Source: a virus. From it: DNA of 40,260 nt. Shown here one piece after another: positions 3 to 40,259 of the stretch. The notes beneath the pieces were generated by a model. That model was not told the DNA's origin. It ran no database searches and worked only from the letters and a program-made list of their open reading frames with translations. Location of the stretch: positions 1-40,260 of the IMG/VR virus record IMGVR_UViG_3300037367_000030; one strand, written 5' to 3'. Numbering within the stretch: position 1 is the first letter of the stretch; each line of letters starts with the position of its first letter. A program made the translations under genes and the position numbers.

Positions 3-188
3 TCCTGCGGTAAATGCATCAGGGGCCTTCTGTGTCACAGCTGCAACGTCGGATTAGGAAACTTCCGCGATGACCCTGAGATGCTCAGAGCTGCAGTTCT
101 ATATCTCAATCGTTTCGTTGGGGACCGCGTCACCGAGGGCGGGTCGCATACGCAGACCCGACCCCCCGGCGACAAACGGTCGGACTAG
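3..188 (+). CDS. Endonuclease VII-type HNH homing endonuclease, C-terminal part (cut by window edge)
   Basis: Frame 3 is open from the left edge to a TAG at 186-188. It reads CGKCIRGLLCHSCNVGLGNF and then a helical EMLRAAVLYLNRF. This matches the C-terminal zinc-binding and dimer part of phage recombination endonuclease VII proteins, the same family as the genes at 5272 and 9879 in this window. It is the only late-region gene on the plus strand, and it ends tail to tail with capsid gene 1, overlapping its stop by 4 bp. I infer a free-standing homing endonuclease. The catalytic DHDH part must lie left of the window. Confidence 0.8.
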   Translation, partial: SCGKCIRGLLCHSCNVGLGNFRDDPEMLRAAVLYLNRFVGDRVTEGGSHTQTRPPGDKRSD

Positions 189-1159
189 TACGTGAGCGAG
201 GACACCGCGCCGTAAGGAGCGGAGAACCCGGTGCCCGTGGCAACCGCCAGCGACTGCCCGTAACGGAGCAAGAACGCGATGTAGTTGTAGCACTGGAACC
301 GGATGCCCATTGAGCCCGAGAGCACCTCTCGGAACACCTGCGTGCGGAGGTCACCGAGGAACAGCCACGCGTCATCGGCCAAGAAGGCGAGGGCGTAGTC
401 CTGACCGGACCCACCACCCGTCGTGTCGGCCGTGCCGATGTTGTCGTCGATGTAGACCGGAGCACCGAAGTTCGTCCGACCGACCAGACCTTCCGCGGGG
501 AGCGGGAGATCGACCGTCGCCGGCACGTTCCACGGACCGAAGCCATCGGCGCCGACCAGGGGACGGTCGTTGGCGTCGGGACCAGTCGCGTACCAGAACC
601 ACCGGCGACCGTGCAGCACGAAGCGGATGTTCGTCTGGTCGTAGCGGGTACGGGCGATCTGTGACGCCATGGCACCGAGCACGGTCGGGAACGTGTAGGC
701 GGCTGGGTTGGTCGCCGTCCAAGTGACGTTGTTACCCGTCCAGTTCGTATACGGATACAGGCCCTGGATGTGGCCGCCGTTGAGCTGGGCCGTGTTCAGG
801 CCGTCACCGTGGATGACCTCACCGTCGACGAACGTGTTGTAGGCCGCCATGAGGTCGGTCATGATCACCTCGTCGGTGATGCCGTTCGGCGACTGCTCGA
901 GCAACTGCAACGCGACGTCGGACTGACCAGCAGCCGTCTTGACGTTGGCCTGGACGAACGTGTCGGTCCAGTCCTGCGACACGACGCCCGCGGAATCCGC
1001 CTGCTGGTAGCCGACCGCGGTCAGCGTGGATAGCTTCGGGATGTTGATCGAGTCCGTCCCTTGCGGGAGGTCGAGCTGGCGGCACAGGCCGGCGGTGACC
1101 AGGTGGGCACGCAGACCGGGGATGTACTCGTCGGGCAACCACAACGGTGGAATGAAATA
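185..1159 (-). CDS. Major capsid protein 1, exon 2 (HK97 fold)
   Basis: This exon encodes residues 222-545 of the HK97-type capsid protein after splicing. It starts YFIPPLWLPDEY, completing the family motif DGxGGYF begun in exon 1. It continues with the E-loop and A-domain pattern (SINIPKL, QSDVALQLLEQSPNG, VLSGSMGIRFQCYN near the end). Read alone it would have to start at a GTT/GTA-rich stretch without a ribosome binding site, and its first seven codons (1160-1180) belong to the intron. Its homologue at 2265-3779 aligns throughout, for example VLSGSLGARI against VLSGSMGIRF. The protein forms the capsid shell. The exon limits are inferred from group I splicing rules and from the homologue. 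Confidence 0.9.
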   Translation of the reverse strand, partial: YFIPPLWLPDEYIPGLRAHLVTAGLCRQLDLPQGTDSINIPKLSTLTAVGYQQADSAGVVSQDWTDTFVQANVKTAAGQSDVALQLLEQSPNGITDEVIMTDLMAAYNTFVDGEVIHGDGLNTAQLNGGHIQGLYPYTNWTGNNVTWTATNPAAYTFPTVLGAMASQIARTRYDQTNIRFVLHGRRWFWYATGPDANDRPLVGADGFGPWNVPATVDLPLPAEGLVGRTNFGAPVYIDDNIGTADTTGGGSGQDYALAFLADDAWLFLGDLRTQVFREVLSGSMGIRFQCYNYIAFLLRYGQSLAVATGTGFSAPYGAVSSLTY

Positions 1160-1430
1160 CGATTTGTTACTCCGCAGCAACGCTGCGGGGTTAGGTCATT
1201 TCTGCCTAACTCTGCATCTTTTCCATTGATGCAGACCCGACTATATCTTCATCTGCCAGCGGTCCCGAGGTACACAGCCTCGGACGCTTATGGCAGAGCT
1301 TCACGTGTAGTCTGTACGGACTCTCCCTGTGCGGGTTGCCTCGGTATTCCCCTGATCATTGGCGGGGTTCACCGATACAGTGAAGTTTTCTAGCTTAGGG
1401 TCACCCCTAAGCGGCGGCCATCTCCTGAAA
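1160..1430 (-). ncRNA. Group I self-splicing intron in the capsid gene (271 nt, no ORF)
   Basis: Reading the minus strand, exon 1 ends GGCGGT (1436-1431). The intron begins TTTCAGG and soon contains GCCGCC, which pairs with the exon end through a U-G wobble, the classic P1. The intron ends in G at 1160. A perfect hairpin follows P1 (GCUUAGGG-GUGA-CCCUAAGC). The core has AAUACCGAGGCAACCC (P/Q region), GUACAGACUACACG (R) and GAAGAUAUAGUC (S), so P7 is CAGACUA with UAGUCGG. Three 3' hairpins can be read: GCAUC/GAUGC, GUUAGG/CCUAAC and CCGCAGC/GCUGCGG. Removal joins codon 221 (Gly) to Tyr in phase 0. It encodes no protein; exon 1 runs seven codons into it to a TAG. Confidence 0.93.
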
Positions 1431-2093
1431 ACCGCCGTAGCCGTCGGTCCGGTTGGGCTCGACGCGCTTTTCCACCGGGTTGTAAACGGCGCCCCGGTGG
1501 AAGGGATCGTACATCGGCTCATCGGTCGCACCGCGGCTCTCAGCCAGGGCGACCTTGCGCCGGGCCCGCTCTTCGGCGGCGGCGATCCTCTTCGGGACTT
1601 CCACCTCCATTTCGGCGCGGTGGCGGTCGAGCCGTTCGATCGACTGTGACTTCGTGGTGGAACTGAAGCTCGCACCGTCGACCATCGAGCAGGCGAGGTC
1701 CCGGAAGTACGAGACGCCGTTCATGCCTCGGCCGTTGTCACGGCGATAGGTCATCGGCTCGCTGATATCGCCGTCGGTGACGACGTCCTTGTGGGCGTCG
1801 GCAGCCTCTTGGCGTCGGCGGACGATTTCCTTTTGGTCAGCGATCCGGCGGTCGAACTCCTGAATCTCGGCTTGGCGCTGGTCGCAGTCGGCGATGAACG
1901 TCGCCTTGGCGACGTCGAACGCGTTGCGCTCTTCCTCGGTCGGGCGCTTCGTCTCGTCCGCTTCTGCTAAGCGGGTCTCGAAGACGCCGCGTTGCTCTTC
2001 GAATGCGTTGATGTCGGCCGACCATTCATCGACACGGGTCGCTCGCTGCTCGAGCAGCTTGTCTAGGAGCGTGGGCTCCAACTTGGGGGGCAT
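1431..2093 (-). CDS. Major capsid protein 1, exon 1 (N-terminal delta domain and N-arm)
   Basis: Exon 1 encodes residues 1-221. The ATG at 2093 follows AAGGAGG at good spacing. Residues 1-100 are charged and helical (coiled-coil-like), as expected for the scaffolding delta domain that the head protease removes. Then come SYFRDLACSM, an ERLDRHRAEMEVE helix and VEPNRTDGYGG, the conserved run-in to the HK97 core. Without splicing the frame gains FQEMAAA and stops. The capsid protein 2 gene has the same layout (SYFADLL, QRLNRHRDEM, VEPNVTDGTGGYF) without an intron, which supports the exon border. The spliced protein is 545 residues. Confidence 0.9.
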
Positions 2094-2115
2094 TGGCCCC
2101 TCCTTTCGGATTGGG

Positions 2116-2134
2116 GCGCGCCGGACAGGCGCGC
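2116..2134. terminator. GC-rich hairpin between the two capsid genes
   Basis: GCGCGCC and GGCGCGC form a perfect 7-bp stem around a 5-base loop, in the 171-bp gap between capsid genes 2 and 1. There is no T tract, so it may be an RNA-stability or attenuation element rather than a terminator. The gap 2094-2264 shows no other convincing gene. Confidence 0.35.
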
Positions 2135-2264
2135 AAGGGTGGGATTGCTTCCCTCGGGTGGATGCGGCGACGGGCGATGTCCACTCCGGCGTGCCGATGG
2201 GCAGGTGGTGGTGGATCTGTCGCCCGGCGTGGTCCGGCGCGTGGGTACTGCTACAGCTGGTGGA

Positions 2265-3779
2265 TCAGAATCCTGACGCCACAGTCATTCCCGTGCCCTG
2301 TATTGAATAAATCGATGCAGGGTAACGATTTGTGATGGCGGCGACGTTGGCGTGCAGGCTGATACGCGCTCCAAGGCTGCCCGAGAGAACGTCGCGCATG
2401 ACTGAGGTCTGCGGAGCGCCTTCAAGCAAAATTAGATCGCTCGGGCGCATGCAGAGAATGAAGTCCTGGTTCGCTCCCGTGCCCTGCGTCGCCTTGATGG
2501 CATCGGAGAGGAACACGGGCCAGCCGATGAGGCCACCGACTGGGTCCGGCGTAGCATCGTCAGAACCGAGGAAGAATGGGGACGGGATCCCGAACGGGCG
2601 TGAGGCGGTGTCTTCAGATGTCTGGAGCCAACTCCATCGAGCCGTACGCATCACCCAGCACTCGGGGGGCAGGTCTCGGGCGTCGCCGAGCTGGCCGGCG
2701 GCCTGACCGAAATAGGCCCACATGGCCGAGCCCGTAGGCGATGCGCTGGAGTAGGTAACGGCGGTGTCAGCGTTGAGCACGCCGAGCAACTCGTTGAAAG
2801 ACGACCCTCGGCCAGTCAACAGCGCCGTTTCCAGGTCCCGGTCGTAGTCCTCGGCCATGTCCTTGAGAAGCGCCCAGTCGAGGTGCGCGCCCTGGGGCGA
2901 CTGCTCGACCATCTGGACGGCCACGTCGGCGATGCCAGCGATGGTCACCACGTTGGAGGACCCAGCCGTGTCGGTGATGTCTGCGCTGGGGACGGGACCG
3001 TCGGGGTTGACGTGCTGGGTCCTGGTCCCGGTGCCGATAATGGGAAGGTTGATCGATGAGACACCCGGCGGCAGGACGAACCTGGGGATCAGGCCAGCCA
3101 CGACGCGCCGGGGGCGCACGGCGGTGGCGAATAATTGGTTCATCCACAGCGGGATGGTGAAGTACCCACCGGTCCCGTCGGTGACATTCGGCTCGACCCG
3201 GTATTCGAACTCGCCCGAGCGCAGACCCCGCAGGGCGCGCTGGTTGCGCTCCTCGGCGATCACCCTCATCTCGTCGCGGTGACGGTTGAGGCGCTGCTCG
3301 GCCGGGGGGTTGTTGTTCGAGGTCAGCAGGTCGGCGAAATAGGAGTGGCGCGAGTGGCGCTCGTAGGTGAGCGGCTCGGACTTGATGGCGACCGTGGGGG
3401 GCTCGGGGTTGAATCGAGCCGGTGCACGGCTCTCTTGAGGATCACGCGAGCCGAGCATCATTGCCAGCGCCCGCATATCGACTCGGCCACCGGAGCGACT
3501 CTCGAGCTTCGATGCGCCCTTCGACTCCGTGATCGGCTCATAGGTGGTCACCTGGACCACGGGCACCGGCTCACCGAGCTTGACGACGTTGCCGGCGTCG
3601 ATGGTGTAGGGCACTTCGAACGTGTCCCCGCCGAGGCTGTAGATCGCCACGGTGTCGGTCATGTCCTGCACCCAGACCCAGCAGTACGGGTCAGACGAGA
3701 TCGACTCCTCGATAGCGTCCTGGATGAGCCGCTGCATGTCGTTGTAAGTCAGCCCCGAACTGCGCAGTGTCATGCTCAT
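2265..3779 (-). CDS. Second HK97-type major (or minor) capsid protein
   Basis: 504 residues; the start ATG overlaps the protease stop (ATGA). Residues 1-90 form a distinct N-terminal domain (DPYCWVWVQDMTDTV, then VTTYEPI) often seen in actinophage capsid precursors. Residues 125-190 resemble the delta/N-arm of capsid protein 1 (SYFADLLT, QRLNRHRDEM). The HK97 core begins VEPNVTDGTGGYF and ends VLSGSLGARISLHANVAA. It is clearly homologous to the intron-containing gene downstream but only moderately similar, so this is an old duplication or a two-protein shell, not a recent copy. Both reading frames look intact. Which one is the main shell protein cannot be told from sequence. Confidence 0.88.
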   Translation of the reverse strand: MSMTLRSSGLTYNDMQRLIQDAIEESISSDPYCWVWVQDMTDTVAIYSLGGDTFEVPYTIDAGNVVKLGEPVPVVQVTTYEPITESKGASKLESRSGGRVDMRALAMMLGSRDPQESRAPARFNPEPPTVAIKSEPLTYERHSRHSYFADLLTSNNNPPAEQRLNRHRDEMRVIAEERNQRALRGLRSGEFEYRVEPNVTDGTGGYFTIPLWMNQLFATAVRPRRVVAGLIPRFVLPPGVSSINLPIIGTGTRTQHVNPDGPVPSADITDTAGSSNVVTIAGIADVAVQMVEQSPQGAHLDWALLKDMAEDYDRDLETALLTGRGSSFNELLGVLNADTAVTYSSASPTGSAMWAYFGQAAGQLGDARDLPPECWVMRTARWSWLQTSEDTASRPFGIPSPFFLGSDDATPDPVGGLIGWPVFLSDAIKATQGTGANQDFILCMRPSDLILLEGAPQTSVMRDVLSGSLGARISLHANVAAITNRYPASIYSIQGTGMTVASGF

Positions 3780-5248
3780 GCGACGTCCAATCGTGGTGCG
3801 TGCCGGAGGGCTTCGAACTGGGCCAGGCGACGGGCGATGTCGATATCGGGCTCGATGACGACGGACTTGGCTTCCTTCTCCTTCAGCGGTGACGAAAGGG
3901 TCGGCTCGAGGTCCTTCGGGTCCCCATCGGGGTCCTTGACACCCAGCACGGTCGAGACGGCTCCTTGGGCGTCGTCCAGGGCCTTGTCGATCTCTTGGAG
4001 CGAGCGGACGATCCCAGGGATGTCCGCGTCATCTGCCGTGTGGAGAGCGTCAAGGGCCGTCTGCAACTGGGCTGAGTTGGCAGCGGAGATGGACTTGCCG
4101 GCGCGGAGTTCGGTGATGAGCTGACGAACTGTGCTCAGGAGTTGATCTGAGAGTGCGCGGGCCTCTACCGAAGTAGCTGGGTTCGCCCCCCAGTTCACGA
4201 CAGAAACATCGCCCTTGTCGATGGACAATTCCGTCAAGGTCCGCTCGGTGTAGTCAGGGTTCCAGTCCTGGCGGACCGTTCGGAACGCGAAGCTGCACTC
4301 ACGGAGCAGACCCTTTTGCACCTTGCGGAATACCGCTGCGGAGTCGGGGTCGTCGGGGTCGAGTGCGGCGTCGAAGTGGAGGCCGATGTTGTCCTCCCGC
4401 AATGAGAGGCTGCCATTGACCGTGGAGGAAAGAGGAAGACCTGTGTGGTTTGACAGCAGATGGACTTGCGCTCCCTCGGCCAGACTCTTCTTGAGCGCGC
4501 CGCGCTTGACAGTCTCGTTGTAGAACCCCATGTCGTAGGGACGGTCGAAGACGCTGCCGTACCCGGAGATATGGAGCATCCCGTCGTCGGACTTGTCGGC
4601 CGTCCGGGTCTCGAGCGGCCCGTTGTCGGAATGCCTGCGCTCGAATGCAGAGCCCCGCTGCAGTAAACCTTCGGCGAACGCCTTGCGGTGCTCCAGGTCC
4701 ATGAAGCTCGCCTTGGTCTCCATCACTCCAGTACCGCCGCAATCCGGGCACTGGCGGTGCCCATCCATGATCTTCCCAGTGCCCCCACAAGTGCTGCACT
4801 CTGTAGAGTCATCGGCGGCCTTCTTCTCGTCACCAATCCCCATCTTCTTCGCCGCGGCCTTGATCGCAGGCATGGCCTTCTCGGCGATGTTGGCCTGTTC
4901 GCCACCCGCTGCGATCGCTGCCGCGGCCCGGGCGAGGGCGTTGCGGACGTGGGCAGCGTCTTGAATGGGGTAGTGACGGAGAGAACGGGGCGTCGTCTTG
5001 CCCTCTTCGTCCTTCTCGCCACCGGACTCGATATATGCGAAGTCGCTGTCGGGGAGGTCATTGATGGCCGCAGTTGACATCTCGGCGCGCCACTCTTCGT
5101 CCGTCCACAGGCGCGACTGCGTTTCCTTGGGAGCGTCGTTGTTCTCGCCAGTGCCGGTGCCTCCGCAAGTGGGGCACTCAATCTCTTGGCCGTCCAACCT
5201 GATGGTCCCCTCCCCATCACAGCGATTGCAGTTGTCACCAGCAGCCAT
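3776..5248 (-). CDS. HK97-family prohead protease with two DnaJ-like zinc modules
   Basis: 490 residues, ATG after AAGGAGG. Residues 7-28 (CNRC...CPTC) and 151-170 (CSTC...CPDC) are CxxCxGxG-type zinc modules like those of DnaJ. Between them, LPDSDFAYIE and the Ala-rich helix to about 140 resemble a small domain found next to phage proteases. From about residue 222 the U35 protease fold is clear: ISGYGSVFDRPYDMG, LLSNHTGLPL with His268, and LLRECSFAFRT with Ser319. After about 370 it is charged and helical, perhaps a scaffolding tail. The protease would cleave delta domains from the capsid proteins. It is much longer than the 200-250 residues usual for the family because of the N- and C-terminal additions. 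Confidence 0.88.
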   Translation of the reverse strand: MAAGDNCNRCDGEGTIRLDGQEIECPTCGGTGTGENNDAPKETQSRLWTDEEWRAEMSTAAINDLPDSDFAYIESGGEKDEEGKTTPRSLRHYPIQDAAHVRNALARAAAAIAAGGEQANIAEKAMPAIKAAAKKMGIGDEKKAADDSTECSTCGGTGKIMDGHRQCPDCGGTGVMETKASFMDLEHRKAFAEGLLQRGSAFERRHSDNGPLETRTADKSDDGMLHISGYGSVFDRPYDMGFYNETVKRGALKKSLAEGAQVHLLSNHTGLPLSSTVNGSLSLREDNIGLHFDAALDPDDPDSAAVFRKVQKGLLRECSFAFRTVRQDWNPDYTERTLTELSIDKGDVSVVNWGANPATSVEARALSDQLLSTVRQLITELRAGKSISAANSAQLQTALDALHTADDADIPGIVRSLQEIDKALDDAQGAVSTVLGVKDPDGDPKDLEPTLSSPLKEKEAKSVVIEPDIDIARRLAQFEALRHAPRLDVA

Positions 5249-5271: not shown

Positions 5272-5967
5272 CTAGGCGACGCCCAAATGTCGTTTGGCCG
5301 CGTCGCGCAGATAGGCGGCAGCTTGTTCTAGTCGTTCGGGTTCATCTTTGAAGTACCCGATGCCCGTGTTGCAGTAGATGCATAACAGAGCCCGAACGCA
5401 TTGTCCGCACGAGTTCTCGCCAGGACAGCAGGCGTGATCGTGATCGATAACGGCCGGCTCGCCCAGGCAGCCGGATACGGCACACATCCCGTTCTGGGCT
5501 AAAAGAATCGCTGTGTACCACGAATAGGTGACGTTGTGTCTTGCCAACCGACAACACAACTTGCAGGCAGTATGAACGCGACCCGTATCCGGCCGGAGAT
5601 AGAACTCATCTTTCGGGAGGGTGCGCTTGCATCCTCCACATCGCCACTGCCCCAGTCGTCTCAGTCCCTCGGCTTCCCTCCGAGATATGCGGTCCTCGCG
5701 GTAGCCCTTCCCGATCTTGGTGGTCGGGTCACCGTATTTCGCATTCCGTTGGTAGTGCTTGACGCAAAAACCCTTACCAATGGGCTTTCTGCCGCAGTCC
5801 GCCACCGCGCACACCTCGGGGCACGGCACACGGAGTAGAGGCGCATCTGGCGCTCCGTGCTTTAGGTAGCGACGGTAATGCTTGAGACACCACGTTTTGG
5901 CATGCGCAGGTCGCTCGCAACTGGTGATTGAACACACGCTTCGGCTGCCGGGGATACCCTTAGCCAT
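5272..5967 (-). CDS. Endonuclease VII-type HNH homing endonuclease
   Basis: 231 residues, ATG after GGAGGTATCG. The N-terminal half has two repeated zinc motifs (CSITSCERPAHAKTWCLKHY and CAVADCGRKPIGKGFCVKHY), then GCKRTLPKDEFY. The C-terminal half is the endonuclease VII domain: NGMCAVSGC, VIDHDHACCPGENSCGQCVR, LLCIYCNTGIGYF. Asp-His in VIDHDH would be catalytic. It lies between portal and protease, which are normally adjacent, so it is an insertion into the head operon. Its upstream region carries the hairpin leader shared with the genes at 9879 and 16453. The role as a free-standing homing enzyme is inferred. Confidence 0.87.
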   Translation of the reverse strand: MAKGIPGSRSVCSITSCERPAHAKTWCLKHYRRYLKHGAPDAPLLRVPCPEVCAVADCGRKPIGKGFCVKHYQRNAKYGDPTTKIGKGYREDRISRREAEGLRRLGQWRCGGCKRTLPKDEFYLRPDTGRVHTACKLCCRLARHNVTYSWYTAILLAQNGMCAVSGCLGEPAVIDHDHACCPGENSCGQCVRALLCIYCNTGIGYFKDEPERLEQAAAYLRDAAKRHLGVA

Positions 5968-6062: not shown

Positions 6063-7295
6063 CTAGTTGGCTTTGTCCCCGCCCTGCGCGACTGCGGCGG
6101 GCATCGGCGCACTGTTCAGCGGGGCATTGAACGCGTCCCACGTGCCGTCATTAGCGTCAGGGTCAGTGACCGGAGGCAACCCTTCAGCCTCTCTCACCTC
6201 GCTATTCGACATCGCCCCGATGACCCGTGCGATCTGGTAGGCAGCCCAACGCTGAAGGGTGTCGCCCCGGAGACGCTGGGACAGGTCGAACATGACGAAC
6301 TGCTTCGATGGGAGCCACGACGTCATCAGGTCTTCCCACCGGCCGAGCCAGTTGAGGAGGGTGTTGCGGACGTAGCCCAGCTCTTGCTGCTCGATGCCGG
6401 CGCCCCAGGAGGTGTCCTTGGTGACCATGCCGATCATGTGGGGTGGGACCCGGTAGAGCATGCCCGAGATGGTCGAGGCGCTCAACTGCATCTGCTCGAG
6501 GAACTGGGCGTCGGACGCGTTGACCGTGATCGGCTTGAATGTGGCGCCGCCGGTCAGGACGGCCGGCAGGTGCGAGGCGTTGATGCCCTGGTGCGCTTCG
6601 AGCCAGGAGTTCTTGACCGCCACGGCCTCGTCGGGGTCGTAGTCGCCTTCGAGGGTGATCACCCCATCGGGCCGGGCCGAGTTGGAGAAGAACGCCCCGC
6701 CGTAGAGGTCCTGAGCCCGGGCCACGCCGAGCACATTGCGCATGTACTCGATCGGGTTGAGTCCGACGATGCTCTCGGGGACCGACAGCGCCATCGCCAT
6801 GGTCACGTTGTCGGGTGAGACCACCTGGTTCCAGTAGCGGGTCTCGATGGTCCCGTTGGGCAACCGGCGGCGCTTGGCGTGGTCGGGGTGGACGAGTTGG
6901 ACCTGGGAGGGCAGTAGATAGGGCTCGTCGCGGCCGGTGATATTCCCGAAGAGGTTGCCCCGGAGAAGCATCGAGGCGGTGCCCTGGGTGATGTAGTCGC
7001 GCTGAGTGATCTCGGGCCAGGGCTGGGCGATGACCGGCGAGGGGTCGATCTGGACCGCCGTATCAGGCCCCGTCGCTCGGTACTGACGGATGGGCAGCGT
7101 GGCGAGTGAGTCGCAGATGATCGAGACGGAGCCATAGACGGCGGCGAGCTGGAGGGCCGTGTGCTCGGAGATGACCACGCCGGCCGCTGCCGTTCCGTAA
7201 CCCTGGCCGGGAGGCGGTGGTGCCGTCGAGCCCCAGGGCTGGAGGGGGTTGGCACCGCGGGTTTCGAATTTCCGCTCGGTGGTGAGGATCTCCAT
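6063..7295 (-). CDS. Phage portal protein (HK97 family)
   Basis: 410 residues. Motifs of the SPP1/HK97 portal family: VYGSVSIICDSLATLPIR near the N-terminus, LLLRGNLFGNI, VHPDHAKRRR, then YRVPPHMIGM and SWGAGIEQQELGYVRNTLLNW before WLGRWEDLM. The protein forms the dodecameric ring at one head vertex through which the terminase pumps DNA and to which the tail joins. It follows the terminase and two small head genes, the usual order. The C-terminus is Ala/Pro rich and ends at a TAG just before the endonuclease leader. Confidence 0.93.
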   Translation of the reverse strand: MEILTTERKFETRGANPLQPWGSTAPPPPGQGYGTAAAGVVISEHTALQLAAVYGSVSIICDSLATLPIRQYRATGPDTAVQIDPSPVIAQPWPEITQRDYITQGTASMLLRGNLFGNITGRDEPYLLPSQVQLVHPDHAKRRRLPNGTIETRYWNQVVSPDNVTMAMALSVPESIVGLNPIEYMRNVLGVARAQDLYGGAFFSNSARPDGVITLEGDYDPDEAVAVKNSWLEAHQGINASHLPAVLTGGATFKPITVNASDAQFLEQMQLSASTISGMLYRVPPHMIGMVTKDTSWGAGIEQQELGYVRNTLLNWLGRWEDLMTSWLPSKQFVMFDLSQRLRGDTLQRWAAYQIARVIGAMSNSEVREAEGLPPVTDPDANDGTWDAFNAPLNSAPMPAAVAQGGDKAN

Positions 7296-7871: not shown

Positions 7872-9446
7872 TCAGATGTTGTTGAGGTTGATGACGCGGG
7901 CGCGGACCTTTTTGAGCTGGCTGGCCCGGTCGAACGCCATGACGGCGGCGACAGCAAGGTCGATCTTGCGCGCGGAGCCCTTGAAGTCCTTGACGATCCG
8001 GCTGCCGCGCGAGTCCGTTTTGAGCACGCAATTGCCAACATGGCGGGTGAGGTCAGGATCTCCCGAGTGGCTCATCGCCTTATTGACCGCAGCCTCATGG
8101 AATCGGGCGGTTGCGGGGATCATGCGCTCGGGACGCTGGGGATACTCGACCATGGGGATGCGCTCCCCAGCGAGCACCTGCATGGAGCGAGACCAGCGGT
8201 ACGGGTCGCAGACGACCTCTCGGACCCTCCACCGCTTGGCACACTCCCGAATGGCGTCTTCGACGTCTTCGATCGGTACGGACCAGTCCTCGGGGGCTCG
8301 TTCGGGACGAACCCACAGGCCGGCTACGTCGATGAAGGGGATCTCGCCCGTCTGGGCGACCACTAGGGCCGTGGTGTCGTTGTTGAACGACCCGTCGAAG
8401 CCGAGCACGACCTCCGCTCGGTCGGGAATGGTCCGAGCGGTGTCAGCGAGAGCTTCCCAGACATCGAACGGGATCCATTCGGCCGAGGCGGAGGTCACTT
8501 GGTTGAGGTAGAACCGCCGAGAGATGGTCTCGGGCGTTACCGGATCGAGGATCTCGGCCAGGACCCGGTTGACATCGACCCATGACGAGTCGCCACGGGC
8601 TGCGACCAGGCCAGCGCGGATCGCATCCTCGTTCCCGGAGAACTCCTCGATCGGAGGTGCCTCGGTGCTGTCGTAGTAGACGCCCTCGAGCTTGCCATTG
8701 GCGGCTTTCCACGCTTCGTAGGTCTGCTCGGCGGCCGAACCCTCACCCGGGAGGTGCGCATTGGTGATTTCCATGACCCGCGCCGCGCCGTCTCGGGACT
8801 TGCCGAGGTTCCGGCGAATGGCTTGGGACATCTCCAGGCCGTCGTTGTTGGAGAGCCAGTGGTGCGTCTCGTTGGCGATGACGAGAGTGGGACGGCCACC
8901 CTCCAGGGCACGCGGCGAGCTGGTGACCGCCTCGATTCGACCAGTCCCGCGGGCGTAGATGATCTCCTTGCCCATGTCGACGCTGTATTCGGCGATGGTG
9001 TCCTTGGAGAACAGGCCGGGGAAGAGCGTCATCGTGTTGCGGGTCTGATCTCGGCTGACGGCCGCAACTTGGATCCACGGTGCCGGGTGTTGGATCGCCA
9101 GCGGAAGCCCATTTTTCTGCCACCCACCGAACCGACAGGGCCCGCAGAGCTCCACGGCCGCCAGGGAAGCGAGGAACGGGTCCTTGCCCCAGCCCTTCAT
9201 GCGCCGAAGAACGCCGCGTCGGTGGCGAAATGCCCCCTTGGCGTCGATTTCGTACCAACGGAGCACGATGCGTGTCTGCTCGGGCGTGTACTCCCACGGT
9301 GTGCCGGCCAGAGGGCCGTCAGGTTGAAGAAGATGGTCGGCTGTCCAGAGCAAGACGTCCCAACCGAGCGTGCGATTTTCCGGCGGGACTATGTCCGGCC
9401 AGGTCCGAATGGGTTTCGTTCGGTCAAGAACCCTTGCTCGCGGCAT
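7872..9446 (-). CDS. Terminase large subunit
   Basis: 524 residues from the ATG at 9446 (GGAGAAG upstream); it overlaps the small subunit by 23 bp. The ATPase domain has RRMKGWGKDPF (residues 81-91, a modified Walker A) and RPTLVIANETHHW (185-197, Walker B with the catalytic Glu). The nuclease domain starts around LGFDGSFNNDTTALVV (Asp351) and ends with KIDLAVAAVMAFDRA. These are hallmarks of the HK97/actinophage TerL family. It packages DNA into proheads through the portal and cuts concatemers. An earlier ATG at 9503 would add 19 basic residues without a better ribosome binding site. Confidence 0.93.
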   Translation of the reverse strand: MPRARVLDRTKPIRTWPDIVPPENRTLGWDVLLWTADHLLQPDGPLAGTPWEYTPEQTRIVLRWYEIDAKGAFRHRRGVLRRMKGWGKDPFLASLAAVELCGPCRFGGWQKNGLPLAIQHPAPWIQVAAVSRDQTRNTMTLFPGLFSKDTIAEYSVDMGKEIIYARGTGRIEAVTSSPRALEGGRPTLVIANETHHWLSNNDGLEMSQAIRRNLGKSRDGAARVMEITNAHLPGEGSAAEQTYEAWKAANGKLEGVYYDSTEAPPIEEFSGNEDAIRAGLVAARGDSSWVDVNRVLAEILDPVTPETISRRFYLNQVTSASAEWIPFDVWEALADTARTIPDRAEVVLGFDGSFNNDTTALVVAQTGEIPFIDVAGLWVRPERAPEDWSVPIEDVEDAIRECAKRWRVREVVCDPYRWSRSMQVLAGERIPMVEYPQRPERMIPATARFHEAAVNKAMSHSGDPDLTRHVGNCVLKTDSRGSRIVKDFKGSARKIDLAVAAVMAFDRASQLKKVRARVINLNNI

Positions 9447-9870
9447 TTCGGTACTTCTCCATGAGATGCACCGACGCCGGCTCCGGTTGCTTCTCCCGCT
9501 CAAGTTCCAACCGGGCCCGGCGGCGGGACCCCTCGGTCGTGAGAAGCTCGGTCATGCCCGACATCACCGACGCGAACAGGACGGCGGAAAATCGCTCACC
9601 GCTGCTCAAGTTGCGGGACATTGCCTCGGCCACGTAACGGGCAGTCGCCCAGTCCGAGGCTTCGTAGAACTGGGACTGGCCGGACGCGGCGAGCGAGTTG
9701 AACCAGTCGGCGGCGATGGAGTGCCACGCGGGATCAGCCGTCAGCGTGGTGGGCGGGACCTCCGGGATCTCGCTCGAGCCCGAAGGTGCTTTTGTAATCG
9801 CGCCCGCTGGGTTCTTGTTCCTGCGTCGACGTTGGTCAGAGCGTTTCGGGATGGGACCGTCACCAGGCAT
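9424..9870 (-). CDS. Terminase small subunit
   Basis: 148 residues from the ATG at 9870 (AGGAGATCCC before it). The start MPGDGPIPKRSDQRRRRNK is the typical basic, Arg-rich N-terminus of actinophage small terminases. WHSIAADWFNSLAASGQSQFYEASDW is a widely shared stretch. The rest is helical, including a C-terminal ARLELEREK segment. It recognises the packaging start and feeds DNA to the large subunit, whose gene overlaps its 3' end. Confidence 0.85.
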   Translation of the reverse strand: MPGDGPIPKRSDQRRRRNKNPAGAITKAPSGSSEIPEVPPTTLTADPAWHSIAADWFNSLAASGQSQFYEASDWATARYVAEAMSRNLSSGERFSAVLFASVMSGMTELLTTEGSRRRARLELEREKQPEPASVHLMEKYRNAASKGS

Positions 9871-35366: not shown

Positions 35367-38300
35367 TCACACCAGCCCGATTAAGAACGGCATGTTCTGA
35401 CTCTCCGTGATGGAGGAGATGGTGGAGGGCATGGACGACCCCGTGAAACCGCCTATGAGGGGTGGGATGCTATTGATGGGCCAGTAGCCGCTCGGTAATT
35501 CCATCACGCCGGCCGAGTTGAGGCCGATGTATCTGCCCACCGTGACGGTGGTGTTGTCGGCGCTGAAAGCGAGAGCCAATTCTTGACCAGCGGTAACCGT
35601 CAACCCAGGATTGGCGATGGTGTTCCAGGCGTTCGCCGTGAACCCGGAGGCAGCGAGGAGACCGGAGCTGTAGAGCTGGGTATAGACGCCTGCCGTCGTA
35701 GCTCCGACATCATAAACGCCGACCGCCACGTTCCCTGAGAGAGTGCCGAGATACACTGCAACGCTGGTCAGCGTCCCACTGCTCGGCACAATGACACGCC
35801 AAAGATACGTGTCGTTCGCTGCTGCCAATGCTGCCGCAGTGCTGTTAATCCATACCCCCAACGGACTGGTAACCAAACCCGGCACACCCTGTAGTCCGGA
35901 CTGCGATGAGCTGGCCACCAGTGGGACCGTGGGAATCAAGAGGACTGTCGGTTGGCCCGACATGACGACGCCCACTGGTTGCAGTCCTGCGGTAACCGGT
36001 TTCAACGAGCCAACGGCAGGCATCACGGCCGTCCCTACTGCGGGACTCCCGGACAGAACCGGGTCAGTGACCATCCCGCTCATAAGAACGATCATCTGGC
36101 CACCGGTCTGCGTGGCCGTGGCCATACCCGCGTAGGTTCCCCCAGCGAATGCCTCGACTGTGAACGGGGCAGATGGCACCCATTGCACGGGTTCAAGATT
36201 GGTGACTGTCCCCGATACGGCGCAGATCATCCCCTGGAGCTGGCTGACAGTTGGAGTCAGGGACTCCGCAAAAGCCACTCCGGCGAGATTGCTGCTGCTA
36301 TCGAACCAGGTAGCGGCGCTACTCGGTTGTGAGCTTATCCAGGTGCTCGATGTTGTCCCGGCGGCACGGGCACGGAGATACCCCACCGACCCAAACCCAG
36401 ACGACAGGATCAGCGTAAGACCAGTCGCCGCCTGTAGATCAACGGCGTAAGACGACGGACAACCAGGAATACCGTCGAGGGCATAGTCGCCATCGCTGAC
36501 GAGAAAGAAGGTGGTGGCTACTATCGAAGATCCACCGTAGGTATGGTACGACAGGTCCGCGAACAGCCCATTGACAACCTGGAACGCCAGGCCCTCTGGA
36601 ACCGGTACAGATACGCTGTCGAATGCTGGACCGCCGCGAACGATCTGAAATCGGGAGGTGCTATCCATCGTGGGGCTGCCGCTAACCGTGAGCGTCCCGG
36701 CATCTCCATTGTCAGAGGCGATCGAGAAAACGTCGCCAGCCCCGGTTCCTTCTATGATCAAAACGTCTAGCAGCCCGCCGTATTGTCCCTGCGGTTGCTC
36801 ACCCTCACCGCTCGGGAAGTGCGTGTTGTCCCAAGTGAACCCGTTGGCGACGGTGATGACGCTTCCCGAGGCCGACCCTCCCCAATAGATCTCGATGACC
36901 GACGTACTGCTGAGCGTCAAGGCACTCGCCAAGGTGAGCACCGGATTCTGCCCTACCGTGTTCGCCGTTATCTCTGCCTGGGCTCCAGCCCCGGTGCCCG
37001 ACACGACGTAGGCGTACTTGCCTGCCCAGCAGTTAGTGGCGTTCGTGGGCAGATACGGCCCAGCCAGGGTCGGGGTGGTCGTCGAGGTCGAGGTGGCGGG
37101 AAGGTAGACATCGAGCTGCATGTTGGCCGGGAAGCCGGTCACCATGTCCCAGTAGTCCACTCCCACCATGCCGTAGAGGGCGTTGGTGATCTCGGTAGCA
37201 CCGCCCCCGATCTCGCCAGCCCACACTTGGGGGCCACCCGAGAACCCGGCGAAAAGGGCGCCGCCAGAGAGGGATATCACTTCCAGGCTGCCCTGGGTGC
37301 CAGGGTTCTGCTCGAAATAGTCAATGGCACAACCACACCAGACATTGCTGAGAGTCACTCTGTCGGCACGCACATGGTTCCCCGGCATCGACAGTCCAAA
37401 GAAGAAGTTCTGGGCCGAACAACGCACGCAATCCATTTCGGACAGATTCGGACCTCGCAGGCGGGAGGTTCCGGGGCACGGCATGTAGCCCGTACCTGCT
37501 GCACCCGTGACCCCAGCGACCATCCCATACGAAGGCGAGACTCCGTAAAAACTAAGATCCTCATATCTGCCGTGGTTATTGCCGTTATGGGCTGGATATG
37601 TTGGAAGAAAGTCCCAACTCAGCCCAAGATAGGGGTACGTAGCGGCGTAGCCGGTGCCTTGGTAATGCCCACGATGCACGAAAGACCCACCGAGCGGTGG
37701 CAGGCCGTAACCGAAGTACCAATAGCCAGGGGGAGCTTGCACGGTCGCCCCAGAAAGACCAAGCGTCAGGATTTCCGAATAGAGACTCCAGATCGTCTTG
37801 TAGTTGACATCGACAGCTACCGAAATTGTTTCGGTCCCGGTGGCCGTCGCGTTTTGTGAAAGCGTGATCGTATTGATGAACGACAATCCTGGGCCAAGAC
37901 CTGCCACACCCTTGTAGGTCAGCCCCTGGATGTAGGTCCCCCCGGCGATCCCGGTTCCCGACAGGCCCAGTCCCCAACTAAGGGCTGGGATGTTCCCCAC
38001 CACCGTTGCAGTAGGCGAGCTTGATGTAAGTTCCAACGAAATCGAGATCGAGGCGGCGACAGGCGAGGTGGCCGAGCTGAGGCCCGTTATCGGAAAGACG
38101 CCGCCCTGCGTGTCGCCACCGGAGTTGACAGCCGCCACGCCGGACGGTTGTCCGACCTCGGACGTGGCAACAAACGTGCCCGAAAATGCCATCGACCACG
38201 TCTGCGCCGTCGTGTCGATCGTGATGCCAGCGGTGGGCGTCGTGAGCACCCAGACCTGGAGCGCGTGCACGGTCCCGTTCTGGATCTCGATGGAGCGGCC

Positions 38301-39719
38301 CTTGATGACGGCGCCGCTGGCGAACTCGGTGGGGCGGGTCCACGACCCCGACGCGGCGGTCCACAGTCCGGCACCCACTGTGTTGCTCAGGTCGACGACG
38401 AGGTCACCGGCGTTCAGCGTGTAGCCGTCGATGGTCTGGAGGCCCGACTTGGTCAGCGCGGTGGTCGAGGCGCACGCGGCCGGGGTGAGGACCGGGACGT
38501 GGATATTGGCGCGGGAGGAGCCGGCGTCGGCGACGTCGGAGAGGTTGGACGCCTTGGCGAGTTTGAGGTTCCCCACCGTGGTCGCGGTGCCAACGGGGTC
38601 CGACGCGGCCTCGGCGGCCGCCTGAGCGGCACTCGCCGCGCCTGCAGCATCGAACGCCGAGGATGCCTGCGTGGCCGCTGACCCGAGTCCGAGGTTCGTC
38701 CGGGCCGTGGCAGTCGACTCCAGGCCCGCGAGATTGTTGGCCGCGACTATTTCGTTGACGATGGCCGTGACGTTGGCCGTGTCTGCCAACGTCGGGCTGG
38801 GGTAGGTGCCGGTCAGGTCACCGCCGGCAGTGGCGCCGGTCCACGTCTGAGGCCCGGGCAGCACGTAGAGGTTGGTCCCATCAGGACTCCACGCTTCAAT
38901 GATGCTTATGGCATCGGGCGAGAGCGGGATCGTGACCGCCGTGCTGTTGATCTCCAGCGTCCAGTCCCCGGTCCCGTTCTGCTGGAGCAAGAACACGATC
39001 GAGCACCCGGCGGTAAGCCCGGTGACGGTGATGTTGCAGTTGGCCGTGAGTACCCCGGCGAACCACGTATTGATTCCCTCCAGCGCAAGGGTGTGACTGG
39101 CCCCAAGGTTGCCCGCGACGTTGATGGCGGGGATGGGTTCGAACAGGGTGCCCGACAGCGTGTCGAGCGCCGCCGTCACTGCCGCATCCAGCTCGGCCGC
39201 GGTCACATAGCCGTAGAGCGCCTCTTCAGGTAGAGCCGGGGCCACCGTCGCCAGATCGAGCACGCCCACAGGCGTCTGCCCCGCCAGGTTCGTGACCGCC
39301 GTCCCCGGCGTCGGCCATACTCCCCCGGTCTTGGCCTGGTAGACGATCTGGTTCTCAGTGTCGAGATACCACTGCCCGTTGGTCCCTGTGCCCCCCGAGG
39401 GCGCGCCCGTCCCCGTGAGCAGCGTGGCCAGGTTGAGGTGCGAGACGACCACGTCCATGGTCGTGGTCGGCGCGCCGAGTACCTGGGTCGTGACGACCGT
39501 GTACGTCCCCGCGGGCTGCGTGGTCGAGTCGTCGTTGGCGGGCCAGACGATGGCGACTGTTCCCTCGGCATCGAGGGCGGCCGTGGCGGACTGCGCCGGG
39601 GTGATGGTGGTTTCGCCGTCGCTGATGACCTGGGAAAGGGCGAGCGTGATCTGGCCGTGGGCGGGGACCGCACCCACTGATTGCAATTTTGCGAACACGA
39701 GAACCGGCGAGAATGACAA
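35367..39719 (-). CDS. Large tail fibre/receptor-binding protein
   Basis: 1450 residues from a TTG at 39719 (GGAG six bases before). N-terminal region: VFAKLQSVGAVPAHGQITLA, a baseplate-attachment type beta domain. Residues about 100-150 have NGQWYLDTENQIVYQAKTGG. Around 290-380 is the fibre-shaft pattern ATAGGDLTGTYPSPTL, then ATARTNLGLGSAATQ and an Ala-rich helix. From about 620 a pectin-lyase-like beta-helix begins (GATVQAPPGYWYFGYGLPPL). The last 200 residues have a jelly-roll look (SGTLTSVAVYLGTLSGNVAV). It probably binds or degrades the host surface. Confidence 0.85.
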   Translation of the reverse strand: MSFSPVLVFAKLQSVGAVPAHGQITLALSQVISDGETTITPAQSATAALDAEGTVAIVWPANDDSTTQPAGTYTVVTTQVLGAPTTTMDVVVSHLNLATLLTGTGAPSGGTGTNGQWYLDTENQIVYQAKTGGVWPTPGTAVTNLAGQTPVGVLDLATVAPALPEEALYGYVTAAELDAAVTAALDTLSGTLFEPIPAINVAGNLGASHTLALEGINTWFAGVLTANCNITVTGLTAGCSIVFLLQQNGTGDWTLEINSTAVTIPLSPDAISIIEAWSPDGTNLYVLPGPQTWTGATAGGDLTGTYPSPTLADTANVTAIVNEIVAANNLAGLESTATARTNLGLGSAATQASSAFDAAGAASAAQAAAEAASDPVGTATTVGNLKLAKASNLSDVADAGSSRANIHVPVLTPAACASTTALTKSGLQTIDGYTLNAGDLVVDLSNTVGAGLWTAASGSWTRPTEFASGAVIKGRSIEIQNGTVHALQVWVLTTPTAGITIDTTAQTWSMAFSGTFVATSEVGQPSGVAAVNSGGDTQGGVFPITGLSSATSPVAASISISLELTSSSPTATVVGNIPALSWGLGLSGTGIAGGTYIQGLTYKGVAGLGPGLSFINTITLSQNATATGTETISVAVDVNYKTIWSLYSEILTLGLSGATVQAPPGYWYFGYGLPPLGGSFVHRGHYQGTGYAATYPYLGLSWDFLPTYPAHNGNNHGRYEDLSFYGVSPSYGMVAGVTGAAGTGYMPCPGTSRLRGPNLSEMDCVRCSAQNFFFGLSMPGNHVRADRVTLSNVWCGCAIDYFEQNPGTQGSLEVISLSGGALFAGFSGGPQVWAGEIGGGATEITNALYGMVGVDYWDMVTGFPANMQLDVYLPATSTSTTTPTLAGPYLPTNATNCWAGKYAYVVSGTGAGAQAEITANTVGQNPVLTLASALTLSSTSVIEIYWGGSASGSVITVANGFTWDNTHFPSGEGEQPQGQYGGLLDVLIIEGTGAGDVFSIASDNGDAGTLTVSGSPTMDSTSRFQIVRGGPAFDSVSVPVPEGLAFQVVNGLFADLSYHTYGGSSIVATTFFLVSDGDYALDGIPGCPSSYAVDLQAATGLTLILSSGFGSVGYLRARAAGTTSSTWISSQPSSAATWFDSSSNLAGVAFAESLTPTVSQLQGMICAVSGTVTNLEPVQWVPSAPFTVEAFAGGTYAGMATATQTGGQMIVLMSGMVTDPVLSGSPAVGTAVMPAVGSLKPVTAGLQPVGVVMSGQPTVLLIPTVPLVASSSQSGLQGVPGLVTSPLGVWINSTAAALAAANDTYLWRVIVPSSGTLTSVAVYLGTLSGNVAVGVYDVGATTAGVYTQLYSSGLLAASGFTANAWNTIANPGLTVTAGQELALAFSADNTTVTVGRYIGLNSAGVMELPSGYWPINSIPPLIGGFTGSSMPSTISSITESQNMPFLIGLV

Positions 39720-39743: not shown

Positions 39744-40259
39744 TCATGGCAGCGGCAACGGGTTTGTCACCCGAGAGAGCAGCGAGTTGAGGCCAAACTC
39801 AACATTGCCATATTCAACGATGGCGGTTCCCAGTGTGGTGGAGCGATAGATGCCACGCTTGAAATAAGGCCCGATACCGTCACCGGTATATCCCATGTTC
39901 ACGGGACCATTCGAGGCGTAGGAGAACACTTCAGTCCCGTTGACGTACATGTCCATTTGTCCGAGGGCGTTCCCGCTGTTGTCAAACTGGAGGCGGTAGA
40001 CAAAACGATTCCACACGTCGTACGGATAGGTGCCGAGCGTGTAGGGAAGCGTGACCGTTGGACTCAATTCGTTCCCGCCGCGCAGGACGACAGCGAATGA
40101 ACCATCCGTGTAGAGCTCTTGGTTCCACGGCGGGCTCCCAGCCGTATCAGCAGGTGGGGCGTGCATCTGGCCGATGACCATGAACGAGTCAGACCAGACC
40201 GTCGCACCGGGCCAGTGGATCGCTGGCGTCGTACTGTTGTAGCCCCTGGTCACTGTCAT
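39744..40259 (-). CDS. Tail protein with polysaccharide-lyase-like C-terminal domain (cut by window edge)
   Basis: 171 residues are visible; the frame is open at the right edge, so the true start is likely outside. It reads HWPGATVWSDSFMVIGQMHA, QELYTDGSFAVVLRGGNE, WNRFVYRLQFDNSGNALGQM and DMYVNGTEVFSYASNGPVNM, then YFKRGIYRS. The WN.FVY...W/Q...G.. .MYVNG pattern is that of jelly-roll polysaccharide (heparin-type) lyases. It would help the phage through a host glycan layer. It lies just upstream of the fibre gene, 24 bp away. Confidence 0.78.
   Translation of the reverse strand: MTVTRGYNSTTPAIHWPGATVWSDSFMVIGQMHAPPADTAGSPPWNQELYTDGSFAVVLRGGNELSPTVTLPYTLGTYPYDVWNRFVYRLQFDNSGNALGQMDMYVNGTEVFSYASNGPVNMGYTGDGIGPYFKRGIYRSTTLGTAIVEYGNVEFGLNSLLSRVTNPLPLP

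Follow-up and report, generated by a model that had tools for sequence, protein, structure and literature searches.

Gene order at the capsid locus

The window analysed here is a linear IMG/VR record of 40,260 bp, taken over its whole length. On its minus strand it encodes, in this order, a terminase, a portal protein, an Endonuclease_7-type protein, an S78 protease and two capsid proteins, MCP1 and MCP2. The features of the locus are as follows.

7872-9503, minus strand: terminase large subunit (phrog_9, E 2e-88)
6063-7295, minus strand: portal protein (phrog_12, E 3e-67)
5272-5967, minus strand: Endonuclease_7-type gene flanking the capsid region
3776-5248, minus strand: prohead protease, Peptidase_S78 (PF04586, E 4e-30)
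2265-3779, minus strand: MCP1, HK97-fold capsid protein of 504 aa in a single open frame (PHROG match, predicted fold)
3447-3779, minus strand: MCP1 N-terminus with alpha/beta domain and linker (about aa 1-111; the folded portion is about aa 12-67, by pLDDT)
1431-2093, minus strand: MCP2 exon 1, 221 codons ending GGC GGT; coiled-coil-like segment, pro-region and first presumed-mature residues
1431-1437, minus strand: P1 helix of the intron, exonic half, CGGCGGU (sequence; exon/intron covariation across homologues)
1160-1430, minus strand: group I intron of 271 nt with no endonuclease gene inside (RF00028, LittleE homology, covariation)
1412-1418, minus strand: internal guide side of P1 within the intron, GCCGCCG, giving a U.G at the splice site (sequence)
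185-1159, minus strand: MCP2 exon 2, 324 codons and stop; nearly the whole mature HK97-fold core
3-188, plus strand: Endonuclease_7-type gene, incomplete at the window start and just past MCP2, flanking the capsid region

The first-pass annotation had described two complete HK97-type capsid genes in tandem. Their tandem arrangement and HK97 type both hold, but the gene at 185-2093 is interrupted by the 271-nt group I intron. MCP1 in the window begins at a start codon that overlaps the stop of the protease gene and is preceded by a weak ribosome site. The N-terminal part of the S78 protease (3776-5248, minus strand) contains DnaJ-type CxxCxGxG zinc motifs; a CxxCxGxG-like motif lies ahead of MCP1 in contig L060. 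The two Endonuclease_7-type genes of the window share 57% identity over 35 aa, a relative of them sits directly downstream of the capsid gene in contig L088, and the two may act as free-standing homing endonucleases. At the opposite end of the record, positions 39744-40259 (minus strand) encode a polysaccharide lyase or alginate lyase-like domain, adjoined by a 1450-aa ORF (35367-39719) without any family match.

A group I intron in the MCP2 gene

Exon 1 (2093-1431) and exon 2 (1159-185) of MCP2 are separated by the intron (1430-1160). The frame that opens at 2093 ends at 1407 (..GYGGFQEMAAA, then a stop), and the capsid sequence picks up in another frame at YFIPPLW. Taking out 1430-1160 produces one 545-aa frame, and no other removal restores such a frame. 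Consistent with this, spliced MCP2 aligns with MCP1 across the junction (VEPNRTDGYGG/YFIPPLW against VEPNVTDGTGGYFTIPLW), in intronless relatives the match to exon 1 gives way to that to exon 2 precisely where splicing is predicted, and the spliced product has exactly the frame and length of those relatives. An intein or a sequencing frameshift as the cause of the interruption was rejected on account of the in-frame stops, the group I fold and the existence of intron relatives.

The 5' splice site falls after the U at 1431 and the last intron base is the G at 1160. In a 601-nt search, RF00028 matched 1440-1212 over its full length with 42.3 bits (E 2e-9), a score under the curated cut-off of 50 bits, which is why a default whole-window Rfam scan missed the intron. 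The predicted fold has helices in canonical P1-P9 order with the P3/P7 pseudoknot, the P7 pairs having been placed manually, and comprises 68 pairs. In an alignment of six introns, one from a tail gene and five from capsid genes, 95.6% of cells are paired and 23 pairs show changes in both partners, a number reached by none of 500 shuffles. P7 shows an A-U/G-C exchange. Sliding the partners of the pairs destroys the fit. P1 covaries with the host exon, CGGUGGU pairing with GCCACCG in LittleE and L088, the L088 row of this alignment being a little misaligned towards the 5' end.

The capsid gene of LittleE contains an intron (8845-9652) at the same codon boundary, GGT/TAC (GG/Y in the protein), and its core is 77% identical to the MCP2 intron over 207 nt (E 6e-36). 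RT-PCR, together with the N-terminal sequence of the capsid protein, established that the LittleE intron is spliced (PMC3706429). A Baka-type tail intron, which matches the MCP2 intron from base 37 through its final base, is likewise spliced as judged by RT-PCR (PMC3706429). From these data we infer that the MCP2 intron very likely folds and splices itself out in this phage to give full-length MCP2.

Under a contrary reading the second gene is just broken, by frameshift or other damage, and MCP1 alone is made. Stops do interrupt the frame and splicing of the window copy is inferred; yet what interrupts the gene is a group I intron whose structure covaries and whose splice-site features are intact, its homologue at the same site is proven to splice, and the joined exons agree with intronless relatives in frame and length. 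We regard a broken gene as scarcely credible. Read on into the intron, the MCP2 frame ends after seven codons, and an unspliced message would then give a free scaffold segment; that such a segment is made we raise solely as a possibility.

Capsid-gene introns at the GG/Y site were further found in contigs L081, L084/L089 and L088 by pattern and homology searches, bringing to five the distinct capsid genes with an intron at this site, window and LittleE included. The introns of LittleE, L088 and L089 hold a related endonuclease gene on the opposite strand, whereas those of the window and L081 (281 nt) hold none, and neither the window nor L081 yielded a convincing LittleE-type endonuclease relative. 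The 808-nt LittleE intron differs from that of the window in this cargo and also in its setting, as it interrupts the sole capsid gene of its phage and the window intron one of two. By blastn the L081 and window introns are 83% identical; an Rfam scan of L081 returned no intron match. The L081 portal gene (2061-4076) contains an intein with a LAGLIDADG domain, on the same contig that bears the capsid intron.

Identity to the window is 69-81% in the intron cores and 49-59% in the exons, and this better conservation of introns than of their host exons shows that the intron has moved horizontally to the GG/Y site. Group I introns in capsid genes are already known; what is new is one intron family repeatedly occupying one capsid site. 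A mobile RNA element thus keeps taking a single codon boundary, near the mature N-terminus of a highly expressed and essential gene, in distant phages. Capsid genes with such introns are easily taken, wrongly, for complete genes or for broken ones.

Relation and conservation of MCP1 and MCP2

MCP1 and spliced MCP2 share 33% identity over 433 aa (E 2e-48), in agreement with the initial description of the two proteins as clearly but distantly related. Each protein hits PHROG 2263, 'major head protein' (E 6e-24 and 5e-29); against PF05065, with a cut-off of 24.2, MCP2 scores above at 26.9 and MCP1 just below at 22.9. The MCP1 model matches HK97 gp5 (1ohg) with a Foldseek E of 2e-12 and a Z of 18.7 over 243 residues (rmsd 3.9). 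The corresponding values for MCP2 are 5e-14 and 19.0 over 250 residues (rmsd 3.7), its fold having been predicted on the window-encoded stretches rather than the spliced whole, with the scaffold segment outside the model. Mean pLDDT is only 71 for MCP1 and 74 for MCP2, so that confidence in the folds is moderate. These matches bear out the full HK97 core proposed for both proteins, and by predicted fold, sequence relation and position beside portal and protease both classify as HK97-fold major capsid proteins. A duplicated-gene assembly artefact was rejected, given the 33% identity and the presence of the pair in 36 other contigs.

Ahead of the core, MCP2 has a charged N-terminal segment, coiled-coil-like as judged from sequence, followed by a pro-region (EPLTY..SYFRDL..RLxRH), the same architecture as in single capsid proteins. 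In Omega the capsid protein carries a 155-aa N-terminal scaffold domain that is cleaved off, and the mature LittleE protein starts DLDRNNGTGGYAVP, as determined by N-terminal sequencing (PMC3706429). Alignment to this mature N-terminus suggests cleavage of MCP1 as well as MCP2 close to the ExRVxPN..GGY region, and both are presumably processed by the S78 prohead protease.

All 30 of the MCP1 members listed are without the coiled-coil-like segment and retain the shared pro-region. In the window and a few relatives the MCP1 N-terminus instead carries the small alpha/beta domain, modelled with a pLDDT of about 83 over aa 11-70 and followed by a low-confidence linker. The processed N-terminal region first ascribed to both proteins is therefore common to them in its pro-region, but not in what precedes it. 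The alpha/beta domain is fused to MCP1 in some relatives and is a free-standing small ORF in others, lying between portal and protease in L023 (2860-3102), L065, L067 (4688-4912) and L072 (6001-6264). Weak matches link it to PHROG 760 and to part of a head protease family.

Profile typing, together with scans by alignments of MCP1 and of MCP2, identified MCP1 followed by MCP2, in the same order, in 36 further IMG/VR contigs, all retrieved by way of the capsid genes themselves. Several of these are near-identical, and clustering leaves 22 distinct pairs, window included. Beyond the 36, five contigs end before the MCP2 position and one starts past MCP1. No degraded MCP1 was seen among the pair contigs. 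In L004 (7887-8091) MCP2 has no normal C-terminal end and runs into unrelated sequence, which would reflect a deletion or an assembly fault. The search for other genomes with the same pair, proposed at the outset, was thus fruitful, and the refuting condition named beside it, degradation of one gene in relatives, did not hold.

Across the 22 pairs, MCP1 distances are correlated with those of MCP2 (Mantel r 0.80, p 0.0001). In the usable pairs dN is lower than dS for both genes, indicating purifying selection; the L064 MCP1 rows were left out of this comparison for their wrong start frame. In a tree of the capsid core MCP1 is split from MCP2 and the single capsid proteins with support of 100/100, and MCP2 forms its own clade (99.9/100); the tree is unrooted, and MCP1 may have arisen by duplication or by acquisition. 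Together, the conservation, the agreeing distances and the purifying selection support an old, co-inherited pair in which both halves are functional.

Each of 57 related cultured mycobacteriophage records gave one capsid match, including when divergent members served as query, and the annotations inspected place one capsid gene after the protease. The closest comparisons are Omegavirus (cluster J: Baka, Omega, LittleE), Typhavirus and Bippervirus, whose capsid proteins are about 33-39% identical to MCP2 exon 2. These phages share with the window the portal-protease-capsid order and the MCP2-style scaffold-like N-terminal architecture, but they have a single capsid gene and no MCP1, and the window does not fit the Omegavirus-type single-capsid module. 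The relatives suggest an actinobacterial host for the phage. MCP1 as a single query found no match among viral contigs, where the MCP1 alignment did find relatives. No prophage or host relative was found in genome contigs with either alignment, in a search for exact conserved patterns, and a plasmid search gave just four distant single matches. In the open-access literature we found no description of such a capsid pair in this phage group. HK97 capsid proteins as such are already known; what is new is a conserved lineage with two capsid genes, of which the searched collections contain no cultured member.

A possible two-protein shell

HK97-type phages mostly make both hexamers and pentamers from one protein, and a division of labour between shell paralogues is known from few systems, T4 among them. 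The T4 capsid contains 930 copies of gp23 and 55 copies of gp24 (PMC9026906), and so, like the window, T4 has two HK97-type capsid proteins in one phage, gp24 being the minority. T4 differs in belonging to an unrelated phage group and in using separate scaffold proteins, and any likeness of MCP1 to gp24 at the vertex is by analogy. A second precedent is the Family 2B encapsulin of Streptomyces lydicus, which has two components, the first of them unable to assemble alone (PMC12407261). Here too two HK97-fold shell proteins are encoded together, and encapsulin 9bje ranks with the closest structures to the MCP1 model (Z 18.8). The encapsulin is a cellular compartment, however, whereas the window has terminase, portal and prohead protease directly upstream and so does not encode an encapsulin. 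Divided labour thus exists for the HK97 fold, and neither precedent demonstrates it in this phage.

Given these comparisons we favour, at odds of slightly better than even (about 0.55), a two-protein HK97 shell in which MCP2 supplies the bulk and MCP1 is a minor subunit, perhaps occupying the vertices. The MCP2 intron would fold and splice itself out, joining GYGG to YFIPP and giving full-length MCP2, which, with its N-terminal scaffold segment, would form most of the shell. MCP1, with the same core and presumed maturation region and without a scaffold segment, would be a minority component of the shell, forming in the simplest case the vertex pentamers, as T4 gp24 does beside gp23. MCP2 scaffold segments would guide MCP1 assembly and the common protease would trim both. 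The original suggestion of a two-protein shell or special vertex subunit gains from the conserved order, the purifying selection and the agreeing trees; the sequence bears no mark that would assign MCP1 to the vertices, and its role may lie there, in mixed capsomers or elsewhere.

Expression signals differ between the two genes. Ribosome-site pairing is stronger for MCP2 (mean -8.9 against -7.5, p 0.026; in the window -12.4 against -3.3), and C-ending codons are commoner (0.88 against 0.80 in MCP1, p 0.0002), differences that are modest and come from contigs some of which are near copies. The stronger ribosome site and more biased codons suggest higher expression of MCP2. The MCP2 ribosome site often lies inside a hairpin-like CCC-GAAA-GGG motif (2094-2115, minus strand, in the window and in the leaders of many relatives), which might regulate MCP2 translation.

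Both proteins could instead be bulk subunits mixed within capsomers, at a fixed or variable ratio, as in the S. lydicus encapsulin. Such mixing is documented in HK97-fold shells (PMC12407261), and the MCP1 and MCP2 cores are alike in length and fold. We nevertheless consider it unlikely in view of the absence of a scaffold segment from all MCP1 members listed and the expression signals favouring MCP2; 33% identity also seems low for free exchange inside a capsomer. A place for MCP1 outside the shell lattice, as a related structural protein around the portal, inside the capsid or decorating it, appears less probable again. The extra domain at the MCP1 N-terminus, seen in the window and in certain relatives, and the position of the gene between protease and MCP2, would suit such a role, but the complete HK97 core with its conserved fold elements, kept under purifying selection, points to lattice contacts. 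Use of MCP1 and MCP2 as alternatives, giving two particle kinds such as two head sizes according to splicing or translation, would draw on an unspliced message encoding the scaffold segment only. The genes are adjacent on one strand and tightly co-inherited, and the intron is absent from most members of the MCP1-MCP2 family, making this alternative a very poor prospect.

Extended beyond the window, the two-protein shell becomes a more tentative model, one we think doubtful as a whole. In it a widespread uncultured lineage would have an obligatory two-component capsid, with MCP2 providing the hexamers and the scaffold for both proteins and scaffold-less MCP1 the vertices, while a capsid-site-specific intron family spreads among these and single-capsid phages. 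The pair family offers many natural pairs for such questions, and single-capsid relatives are already cultured for comparison.

In six contigs (L048, L049, L052, L060, L063 and L066) an MCP1-type gene precedes the protease and no MCP2 is in reach, which indicates that MCP1-type proteins may also function without MCP2. In L060 and L066 a small, charged, helical-looking gene lies between capsid and protease, and perhaps encodes a separate scaffold.
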